Source of the DNA: a virus
Strand: one strand, 5' to 3'
Virus record (IMG/VR): IMGVR_UViG_3300042310_000426
Span: 1 to 33,795 of that record
Length of the DNA stretch: 33,795 nucleotides
Positions 23,574-27,639 of this stretch are shown here, piece after piece. Made by a program: the position numbers and the translations under genes. Positions within the stretch are counted from its first letter, which is position 1; each line of letters starts with the position of its first letter. Under the pieces are notes generated by a model, which made no database searches, was not told the DNA's origin, and saw nothing but the letters and a program-made list of their open reading frames with translations.

Positions 23574-23990
23574 ATGTCCGCATCATCGCGCGCTGGTACC
23601 GGGATTAAGCGGGATCAATCATCCCGGTACGTGCAGATGCCTCTGGAATTCGCACCCGGGCTGACTGAGCGTCATCCTACCCTGCTGGCCTGCTGCCACG
23701 AATCGGCGGTGCGCTGCGATCGTCCGATGAAGGCGCTGGCCGCCGACATGGACATGAGCAGCTCGGATCTCGGGCGCAAGCTCGCACCGGCGGACGGCGA
23801 TCCGCGCCGGTTGTCGGTCGACGACCTTGTGCGCTTGATCGACGCTACCGGCGACCTGTCTCCGATCTACTGGCTGATCGAGAAGTTTGCCATCGACGAT
23901 GAAGCGCGCCAGCGTCGCGCCCAGGCCGAGCTGGCGAAGCAGCTGCCGGGCTTGATCGCGCTGCTCAAGCAGGTGGGGGTCGGGTCGTGA
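23574..23990 (+). CDS. CII-like regulator (Phage_CP76 family)
   Basis: The product is 138 residues, with ATG 23574 preceded by 'aaggggaaaac'. After about 45 residues comes 'RPMKALAADMDMSSSDLGRKLAPADGDPRRLSVDDLVRLIDATGD', the HTH arrangement of the CP76/CII family, then 'YWLIEKFAIDDEARQRRAQAELAKQLPGLIALLKQ', a helical C-terminus suited to oligomerisation. Such proteins activate establishment promoters in the lysis-lysogeny decision. Its place after cro fits. It overlaps the next gene by 4 bases (GTGA). The target promoter is not identified. Confidence 0.82.
   Translation: MSASSRAGTGIKRDQSSRYVQMPLEFAPGLTERHPTLLACCHESAVRCDRPMKALAADMDMSSSDLGRKLAPADGDPRRLSVDDLVRLIDATGDLSPIYWLIEKFAIDDEARQRRAQAELAKQLPGLIALLKQVGVGS
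23596..23630 (+). other. Perfect 10-bp inverted repeat within the CII-like gene start
   Basis: GTACCGGGAT (23596-23605) and ATCCCGGTAC (23621-23630) flank a 15-base loop, 22 bases after the ATG. No T-run follows, so it is not an intrinsic terminator. It could be an RNA hairpin that tempers CII translation or a protein-binding site. Confidence 0.55.
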
Positions 23991-24733: not shown

Positions 24734-27148
24734 ATGGCACCCACGAACAAGCCGCCGATCGACTTCGGCCGGATAGCTGCCGCCGCGCTCCAGCAGGCCG
24801 ACACCCTCGTCGAGCGGTGGTTGCCCGGCGGGAAGCGGGTCGGTCATGAATGGCAGTGCGGATCGCTGGCCGGGGATGCGGGCAGCAGCTGCTCGGTCAA
24901 CCTCAACACCGGCGCCTGGGCCGATTTCGCGACCGACGAGGCCGGCGGCGACCTGATCTCGCTGTACGGTGCGGTGTACCAGCTGCGAAACGGCCCGGCG
25001 GCCCGCGAGCTGGCCGAGCAGCTGGGCATGGCTGCGAGCGATGCCCAGCAGCCCGAGCGTGCGCGCCGCGCGCCTGAGCCGAAGGCCGAGCCCGCGCCCG
25101 ATGACGATCGCTGGAGCGATGCCGGCGAGTGGCCCGAGGATGGCCCGCCTGCACCGGTGGCGCATGTCGTGCGCGGCCGGCCGGTGCTCTCCTGGTGCTA
25201 CCGCACCGCCGCTGGTGGCATCACCGGCTACGTGCACCGGTTCGTCACCAGCGACGGCGGAAAAGAGATCCTGCCCTGCGTGTGGTCGCAGCACCCTACG
25301 AAGGGCAAGGCGTGGAAGTGGCGGCAGTGGGATCAGCCGCGCCCGCTGTACCACCTCGATTTGCAGGCCGACGATCGCCCGGTGCTGGTGGTCGAGGGCG
25401 AGAAGTGCGTCGACGCCGCGGCATCGGTGCTCGGTGCGTCGCACTGGGTAACCTGCTGGTCGGGTGGCGGCAATGCGGTGCACAAGGCCGACTTCGGGCC
25501 GCTGGCTGGCCGGCGCGTGATCCTCTGGCCCGACTGCGACGCGAAGCGTGACAAGGCCGGCACGGCCCTGCTGCCCGAGGACAAGCAGCCAGGCGTGAAG
25601 GCGATGGAGAAGGCCGCGCAGATCCTGCTCGTGGGCGACTGCGACGTGTCGATCGTGGCCATCCCGCGCCCCGGCGATCGGCCAGACGGCTGGGACATTG
25701 CCGACCTGATCGCCGAGGCTGGCGACAACGCCAGCGCAGCCGTGCACGCATGGCTGCAGGCCGACAAGCTGCGCCGCCCCCGAGCTGCCCCAGCGGGTGC
25801 AGGCGCGCCGCCACCGCCGCCGGATGCGCCCAGCGCACCGCCGCCCTGGCCTGAGCCGGAAGACGACTGGGGCGCCCAGCTCGTACGCATCAAGGGCGGC
25901 AACCTCGCCTCGCACCCGGTCAACGTGTCGACGATCCTGCGCAACGATTCGAGGTGGCGCGGGGTCGTAAGCTTCGACGAGTTCTCGAACCGCGTCGTGA
26001 AGCGTGCGCCGCCCCCGTACGCGCATGGCCGCGCCGGCGAGTGGGTGTCGGACGATGACAGCCGCACCGCCGCGTGGCTTGCGCAGGTGTACGGGCTGGT
26101 GGTGTCGAGCATTCAAGTGCTCGAGGCCGTCGAGATGGTGGCTCGAGAGTCGCCAGTGCACCCGGTCCGTGAGTACCTGCAGGGCATCACCTGGGACGGC
26201 ACGCCGCGCCTCGCGCACTGGCTGATCGATCACGCAGGCGTCGAGGACACCGAGTACATCCGCGCGGTAAGCCAGTTCTTCCTTCGCGCGATGGTCAAGC
26301 GGGTGATGGAGCCCGGCTGCAAGTTCGACTACTGCCTGGTGCTGGAGGGCAGCGAGGGCCTGCGGAAGTCATCGCTGGCGTTGCTGCTTGGCGGCCCGTG
26401 GTTTTCCGACACCGACCTCGACCTGACGCACAAGGATTCGATGGCTGCCCTTCAGGGCAAGTGGCTGCACGAGTTCAGCGAGATGGACTCGGTGACCCGC
26501 GCAGAGGCGGCGAAGCAGAAGAGCTTCCTGTCGAGGCAGGTCGACGAGTTCCGCCCGGTGTACGGCCGGCGGCAGATCAGCTGCCCGCGGCAATCGGTGT
26601 TCGTGGGTACCACGAACGAGGATGAGTACATCAAGGCCGGGCAGGGTGCCAGGCGTTTCTGGCCCGTGCGCGTGCCGCGCGAGATCGACATCAACGCACT
26701 GCGGGAGGCTCGCGATCAACTGTTCGCCGAGGCCATGCAGGACTACCTGGCCGGCCTGCCGTGCGCGCCAGACAGCGAGATGCAGCGCGAGCTGTTCCGC
26801 CCCGTGCAGGCGCGCCGGGTGGTGCAGGAATCGATGATCGATGCGCTGCACGACTGGGTGCTCGAGCCAGGGGCCGATGAGATCACGCGCCGCGTGGCGA
26901 ACGCCAGCTGCTTCTCGCTGGCCGACGCGGCACTGCGAGGATTGCACATCAGCCCGGCGCAGCTTACTCGGGATCTGGAAACCCGCATCGGCAAAGCCCT
27001 ACGCGCGCTCGGCTGCGAGCGCATTGAGAAACGCAACGGCATGAGTCGCTTCTGGTACAAGCCCCCCGCTCGAAATGGGGCCACGTCAGAGGAAGCGACC
27101 GCACCGGGGCACAACCCGTTCGCCGGGGATAGTCATGTAGATATCTGA
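24734..27148 (+). CDS. Primase-helicase: Toprim domain plus VirE/SF3-like helicase
   Basis: The product is 804 residues. The N-terminus 'HEWQCGSLAGDAGSSCSVNLNTGAWADFATDEAGGDLISL' (39-77) is a primase-type DNA-binding region. A Toprim core follows: Glu221 in 'VLVVEGEKC', Asp267 and Asp269 in 'ILWPDCDA'. After a Pro/Ala linker (350-375) comes a VirE-family AAA+ helicase: 'YLQGITWDGTPRLAHWL', Walker A 'GSEGLRKSS' (539-547, Lys545), 'KWLHEFSEMD', the sensor 'VFVGTTNED' and the arginine 'GARRFWPV'. It should unwind and prime at the phage origin, and likely starts replication without a host DnaB loader. It is the largest gene of the rightward early operon. Confidence 0.94.
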   Translation: MAPTNKPPIDFGRIAAAALQQADTLVERWLPGGKRVGHEWQCGSLAGDAGSSCSVNLNTGAWADFATDEAGGDLISLYGAVYQLRNGPAARELAEQLGMAASDAQQPERARRAPEPKAEPAPDDDRWSDAGEWPEDGPPAPVAHVVRGRPVLSWCYRTAAGGITGYVHRFVTSDGGKEILPCVWSQHPTKGKAWKWRQWDQPRPLYHLDLQADDRPVLVVEGEKCVDAAASVLGASHWVTCWSGGGNAVHKADFGPLAGRRVILWPDCDAKRDKAGTALLPEDKQPGVKAMEKAAQILLVGDCDVSIVAIPRPGDRPDGWDIADLIAEAGDNASAAVHAWLQADKLRRPRAAPAGAGAPPPPPDAPSAPPPWPEPEDDWGAQLVRIKGGNLASHPVNVSTILRNDSRWRGVVSFDEFSNRVVKRAPPPYAHGRAGEWVSDDDSRTAAWLAQVYGLVVSSIQVLEAVEMVARESPVHPVREYLQGITWDGTPRLAHWLIDHAGVEDTEYIRAVSQFFLRAMVKRVMEPGCKFDYCLVLEGSEGLRKSSLALLLGGPWFSDTDLDLTHKDSMAALQGKWLHEFSEMDSVTRAEAAKQKSFLSRQVDEFRPVYGRRQISCPRQSVFVGTTNEDEYIKAGQGARRFWPVRVPREIDINALREARDQLFAEAMQDYLAGLPCAPDSEMQRELFRPVQARRVVQESMIDALHDWVLEPGADEITRRVANASCFSLADAALRGLHISPAQLTRDLETRIGKALRALGCERIEKRNGMSRFWYKPPARNGATSEEATAPGHNPFAGDSHVDI

Positions 27149-27156
27149 AACAGGGA

Positions 27157-27270
27157 GGGTTCCATACCTTCCACACTGAAATCAGAACCCCCGCGTGAGG
27201 CGGGGGGGGGCCCCCCCCCGCCCCCACGCCGCACGTAACACACCCATCAGGTATGGAAGGTATGGAACCC
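27157..27270. repeat. 17-bp inverted repeat flanking a G9C9 palindrome; possible replication origin or RNA switch
   Basis: GGGTTCCATACCTTCCA (27157-27173) is the exact reverse complement of 27254-27270, with 80 bases between. The right arm includes a tandem 9-base direct repeat GGTATGGAA (27250-27258 and 27259-27267), and covers two candidate starts of the Q-like gene. It lies just after the primase-helicase gene, where phage origins are common; the tandem repeats could be iterons. In RNA the arms would pair and hide the Q start. Confidence 0.75.
27193..27229. repeat. G9C9 palindrome with longer stem
   Basis: Nine G (27202-27210) meet nine C (27211-27219), inside a 24-base perfect palindrome (27199-27222). 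GCGTG (27193-27197) and CACGC (27225-27229) extend the stem after a small bulge. Such a tract hinders polymerases and could be a replication or transcription barrier. The exact run length may also be a sequencing error. Confidence 0.7.
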
Positions 27271-27639
27271 ATGATCAACCGACACCCGATGCACCTGAGA
27301 CTCACCGACTGGGCCTACTGGGTAACCGCCCGCGGTGAGGGCAAGGTCGGCGCGATGGGCTACAGCAAGTGCACGCTCGCCGATTGGCGGTCGGGCGACG
27401 GCTATGACGGATCCGCGCACTCGGCCGTGCCCGTCAATGCGATCCAGTGCAGACGTACGCACGATGCGATTCAAGCGTGCGAGCCGTGGCAGCGCGAGGT
27501 GCTGACCTGGTACTACGTGCAGGCCCTGACCCTGCGTACGATCGCGCAACGTCTGACCGTGGCCAGCCCCGAGACCGCACAACGCCGCGTGCTGGCGTCG
27601 CTCGACGCGGTCGAAAGCGTTATCCACACGCCCGCTTGA
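27253..27639 (+). CDS. Q-like late antiterminator
   Basis: The product is 128 residues if the ATG at 27253 is used; ATGs at 27262 and 27271 are equally possible. 'MHLRLTDWAYWVTARG' opens it, and the C-terminal half 'CEPWQREVLTWYYVQALTLRTIAQRLTVASPETAQRRVLASLDAVESV' has the sigma region 4-like HTH seen in phage antitermination and ArpU-type proteins. It is the last early gene. A promoter starts at its stop codon and a strong terminator follows before the terminase genes, so a role as Q, letting polymerase read into late genes, is well supported by context. Confidence 0.82.
   Translation: MEGMEPMINRHPMHLRLTDWAYWVTARGEGKVGAMGYSKCTLADWRSGDGYDGSAHSAVPVNAIQCRRTHDAIQACEPWQREVLTWYYVQALTLRTIAQRLTVASPETAQRRVLASLDAVESVIHTPA

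Follow-up and report, generated by a model that had tools for sequence, protein, structure and literature searches.

A facing iteron element directly 3′ of VapE-family helicase genes is most likely a phage replication origin bound by VapE

Facing arrays of 9-bp iterons were located directly 3′ of the VapE-family helicase gene in a viral DNA of 33,795 nucleotides (IMG/VR record IMGVR_UViG_3300042310_000426, positions 1 to 33,795; the whole stretch is hereafter called the window). Judged from the sequences and from analogous systems, this element is most likely a phage replication origin bound by VapE. Beyond the window, more than 60 phages and prophages have the same element directly after a VapE-family helicase gene, and sequence comparison identifies the window element as a reduced form of this widespread phage control-site family. 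The initial annotation had suggested an origin after the primase-helicase, and this suggestion is now well supported by the constant position 3′ of VapE, the iteron arrays, the covariation of protein and DNA, and the precedents of SaPI and P4. GC skew, a check proposed at the same time, showed no switch at the element and thus speaks neither for nor against an origin.

The features of the window are listed in Table 1. The exact 17-bp outer arms described in the initial annotation were confirmed at positions 27157-27173 and 27254-27270, and the extended arms are 20 nt long (95%) with a spacer of 74 nt. By our own estimate, the chance expectation for such a pair no more than about 100 nt apart in 34 kb is about 2 × 10−4. 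Each arm was resolved into two tandem 9-bp iterons (TTCCATACC in the left arm, GGTATGGAA in the right arm). The tandem 9-base repeats previously noted over the candidate starts of the Q-like gene were likewise recovered as two copies of GGTATGGAA, which contain the ATGs at 27253 and 27262 and precede a further ATG at 27271.

Table 1. Positions of the VapE gene, the iteron element and the following gene in the window.
Feature	Position	Strand	Basis or content
VapE-family primase/helicase, proposed initiator	24734..27148	+	Pfam PF05272, E 2.8e-70; PHROG DNA primase/helicase
C-terminal winged helix, proposed iteron reader (residues ~699-780)	26828..27073	+	AF2 model, PriRep1 match, covariation
Left iteron array	27160..27177	-	TTCCATACC at 27160-27168 and TTCCACACT at 27169-27177
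Core between arrays, 72 bp	27178..27249	.	Alternating purine-pyrimidine in relatives; G9C9 in window assembly
G9C9 run, probable two-colour sequencing artefact	27202..27219	.	Alignment with L003, L004 and L153
Right iteron array	27250..27267	+	Two tandem GGTATGGAA at 27250-27258 and 27259-27267
Sigma-70 region-4-like small protein (Q gene of the initial annotation)	27253..27639	+	Sigma70_r4 and TIGR02937 matches, both below cut-off

The strong GC palindrome reported in the loop is present in the assembly as a G9C9 run, but is probably a sequencing artefact that is absent from the real genome. The loci L003 and L153, whose VapE proteins are 98% and 95% identical to that of the window, carry mutually identical alternating CG cores at this site, the core of L004 is similar, and the window core is 10 nt shorter here than those of L003 and L153. 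When the alignment was read by eye inward from both shared flanks, 8 of 8 mismatches were changes to G in the 5′ to 3′ direction of the respective strand (three on the left side and five on the right side). On two-colour sequencers, loss of signal from both sides yields a G-run followed by a C-run at the junction. The run was judged a probable artefact because the kin carry alternating CG and all inward mismatches are G. No excess of G9C9 over C9G9 was detected across all viral contigs (40 vs 43 contigs), and the claim is therefore made from the local alignment only.

The usual layout of the element is three iterons, a core of 64-102 bp and three inverted iterons, with three iterons per array being typical (40 of 58 resolved loci). 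The 18-mer GGTATGGAAGGTATGGAA was present in 59 viral contigs, mostly as a facing pair, and a stricter paired pattern was found in 39 viral and 11 bacterial contigs. All named hosts are Betaproteobacteria (Nitrosomonas, Dechloromonas, Methylovorus, Methylophilaceae and Burkholderiales). All facing iteron pairs of the fetched loci lie directly 3′ of a VapE gene, the exception being L092, the contig of which ends about 0.2 kb upstream of the element. Between the VapE stop codon and the left array there are 5-119 bp, with a median of 74. The middle triplet of the iteron differs from phage to phage, and VapE phages without GGTATGGAA keep the architecture with GGTTGGGAA, GGTTAGGAA, GGCTGGGAA or other iterons. 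BLAST of the window region against the phage collection returned no match, BLAST of a 201-bp relative against the same collection returned a trivial 19-nt match only, and a search of the literature on the iteron sequence yielded nothing relevant. Iteron matches in E. coli were coding repeats in cyoA and were set aside as irrelevant.

Additional repeats were recorded around some of the elements. Palindromic TTCCATACCT-N-AGGTATGGAA units flank the inner arrays on the outside, at a distance of about 64 bp, in L011, L014, L103 and others, and are missing from the window family; DnaA-box-like TTATCCACA sequences lie beside the elements of L092 and L104. A second clade (L018-L082, VapE ~32-39% identical) has TGTCCA/TGGACA-type repeats after the VapE gene, a shorter stretch of alternation (about +250 to +330), and the ATG of the next gene within the right repeats. 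Within this clade, L047 carries TGTTCA/TGAACA repeats, and its GGTGAACAG matches the P4 type-1 iteron.

The cores between the facing arrays are alternating rather than AT-rich. Core segments of the relatives are on average 89% alternating purine-pyrimidine, with a GC content of 44-88% (mean 71%), and an AT-rich unwinding region was looked for between the iteron sets and not found in this family. When whole loci were compared, the strongest alternating segment fell no more than 300 bp from the VapE stop codon in 62 of 66 close relatives, compared with 3.0 expected. The window core as assembled is not alternating; those of its kin are. A rival to the Z-DNA part of our explanation, which leaves the origin part untouched, is an origin that works as a DNA cruciform or single-strand hairpin, with selection acting on the self-complementarity of the core. 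Consistent with this, predicted folding is stronger for the cores than for fully shuffled sequence (mean z −3.4). However, alternation gives hairpins in any register, and compared with shuffles that preserve purines and pyrimidines the cores gained neither pairing (z +0.22 ± 0.14, n = 57) nor palindromicity (z +0.14 ± 0.12, n = 57), which is no more than alternation already gives, indicating that alternation itself and not a particular hairpin is kept. The two arms also vary independently, and a cruciform or hairpin origin is considered unlikely.

Z-DNA is the leading reading of the alternating core as far as its sequence suggests. TA avoidance was sought in the cores and was absent (144 steps vs 129 expected), and the dinucleotide steps were without a clean Z-DNA preference; the lack of TA avoidance counts against strict Z-DNA optimisation. 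Flexible pyrimidine-purine steps are an alternative to Z-DNA for the core. A literature search for Z-DNA in iteron origins returned nothing close.

The VapE protein offers a candidate reader of the iterons. Residues 377-650 match PriRep1 (PDB 7pds; E 1.6e-42, phmmer), an entry annotated as 'similar to D. nodosus vapE'. The AF2 model of the C-terminal winged helix (alignment A1) exceeds pLDDT 90 for most of its length, shows helices and a beta-hairpin, and places residue 773, a Phe encoded at 27050-27052, in the second wing strand. Comparison of this predicted domain with the PriRep1 C-terminal domain, which was solved with dsDNA, gave Z 6.4 and rmsd 3.0 over 75 residues, a middling match among a crowd of other winged helices. 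Foldseek alone found nothing significant. The fold list also includes Zalpha domains (Z 5.4-5.8); since they sit among many winged helices, VapE is not claimed to bind Z-DNA. In many VapE homologues (e.g. L019, L021, L055 and L136) the C-terminus is an acidic tail that closes with PF, a form resembling the SSB C-terminal tail. Among 134 VapE proteins, 86 place an acid no more than six residues away from a final PF. By analogy, such tails may recruit SSB partner proteins; the window VapE ends in ...NPFAGDSHVDI and is without an acidic PF tail.

The third base of the iteron triplet covaries with the residue aligned to VapE 773. A T at this base goes with F, H or S (53 of 53 loci) and a non-T base with Y or R (15 of 15 loci), with the residue classes grouped after the data were seen and with L006 and L016, 2 of the 68 loci, classed by hand for their mixed repeats. 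Among the last 150 VapE residues, 773 is the only column without error across the 68 loci. On a tree built from the helicase part only, about six changes were placed in each trait and no row mismatched. Four independent contrasts fall on well-supported (starred) branches, all in the same direction; on these branches alone the sign test gives 4 of 4 (P = 0.125), a sample size at which significance is unattainable. The covariation at residue 773 and the predicted winged helix together lead us to propose the C-terminal domain as the iteron reader.

A different role was weighed for the arms as transcribed RNA, in which the left arm would mask the ribosome site and starts of the Q-like gene and delay late expression. 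The Q-like protein matched Pfam Sigma70_r4 (E 8.6e-4) and TIGR02937 (E 9e-4), both below cut-off, and its true start is likely the ATG at 27271, with GGAAGGT of the iteron as the likely ribosome site. The right arm overlaps the start codons and the predicted fold is strong, with z −5.5 for the single-stranded window element (0 of 200 shuffles folded as well) and z −5.8 for L153. However, mirror units of the two arms were identical in 34 of 72 cases vs 34.1 expected by shuffling (27 informative loci), and thus the arms vary independently of pairing. The gain in core pairing over the shuffles described above was likewise nil, many relatives carry extra iteron units outside the arms, and among the element-bearing loci searched the Q-like gene is limited to the window, L003, L004 and L153. 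Because the arm units match at chance level and the gene is confined to the closest kin, sequestration of the Q starts, as initially annotated, is unsupported as a conserved role, and this RNA explanation is very unlikely. In this phage the right arm can nevertheless form a pairing that covers the ribosome site, and a local side effect may result.

Two further explanations keep the element in DNA without making it an origin. As an operator, the iterons would mainly control the genes that follow, with VapE or some other DNA-binding protein as the regulator; the right array indeed overlaps the start of the next gene in both the window family and the distant TGGACA clade. Yet facing arrays around a core of 64-102 bp exceed the needs of an operator, and both precedents, SaPI and P4, serve replication; an operator function is very improbable. 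As a cos or pac site, the element would be bound by the small terminase for DNA packaging, and the small terminase gene of the window starts about 780 bp downstream. This is disfavoured because the gap to the terminase ranges from about 0.8 to 5 kb, whereas VapE adjoins the element in every case; the specificity of the iterons moreover follows a VapE residue, and a packaging site appears very unlikely.

In the explanation we prefer, the element is a cis-acting replication site, either an origin or a required region like P4 crr, of a temperate-type phage; a CII-like regulator encoded at 23574-23990, upstream of the replication genes, suggests that the phage is temperate. The VapE helicase encoded just upstream would use its C-terminal winged helix to bind the GGNNNGGAA iterons of 9 bp, and within the variable triplet the third base would be read by the wing residue that aligns with 773 of the window protein. 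At the facing arrays, two helicase hexamers would be loaded so that they face each other with the core between them, a step modelled on proposals for origins of the SaPI and SV40 types. With no AT-rich melting zone at hand, the alternating core would probably relieve torsion or open by flipping to Z-DNA, driven by the helicase or by superhelical strain. VapE binding, double-hexamer loading, origin activity and the Z-form are what we infer from the observed position, arrays, iteron variation, protein-DNA covariation and core alternation. We regard the explanation as a whole, a VapE-bound cis replication site with an alternating core, as quite probable. More tentatively, and with somewhat less than even confidence, the family may represent a class of phage origins in which the conserved core forms Z-DNA and, in place of an AT-rich element, takes up torsion and opens between two facing initiator helicases, and in which a one-residue code in the wing sets iteron specificity.

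On the preferred reading, the VapE proteins, which were named for their association with virulence, would gain, in many phages, a defined role and a target in cis. With more than 60 initiators and their matched iterons, the family would provide natural material for studying how the specificity of winged-helix initiators changes, and a candidate origin with a conserved GC-rich alternating middle would make a role of Z-DNA in replication initiation directly testable.

Several known systems share parts of this arrangement. The putative origin of SCCmec Cch2 consists of intergenic repeats 3′ of the helicase gene that are bound specifically by the C-terminal domain (PMC7581432); the repeats likewise follow the helicase gene, but both the helicase family and the repeats are different. 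The SV40 T-antigen origin, with paired sites for two facing hexamers, is proposed as an analogue only, and the origin-binding domain of T-antigen is N-terminal (PMC7581432), unlike the C-terminal reader proposed for VapE. The crr region of P4, located 45 bp 3′ of the alpha gene, contains inverted type-1 iterons, is required in cis and resembles the element in position. Its middle is AT-rich, unlike the cores described here, and the P4 ori is a separate site; by this analogy a site directly 3′ of a helicase gene can be a required region distinct from the origin. The C-terminus of alpha, compared as a single sequence with the VapE C-terminal profile, gave no detected homology (hhalign probability 0.4%), and a structure of P4 alpha was absent from the fold matches listed.

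The SaPI system resembles the element in both protein and DNA. In SaPI Rep, the C-terminal domain recognises iterons that directly follow the gene of the protein itself (PMC7581432). The window helicase is a sequence homologue of PriRep1 (7pds, E 1.6e-42) with a matching C-terminal winged helix, and several short iterons lie directly downstream of the helicase gene here too; the differences are that the present phages are Betaproteobacterial and that their GGNNNGGAA iterons are arranged in facing arrays. The iterons of SaPI origins flank an AT-rich region, whereas the middle of the present element is GC-rich and alternating purine-pyrimidine. By analogy, the element most likely belongs with the SaPI/P4 kind, as a variant whose core is unusual; since this core is not AT-rich, the element is placed as a variant that would work like the SaPI PriRep type and not as a plain member.
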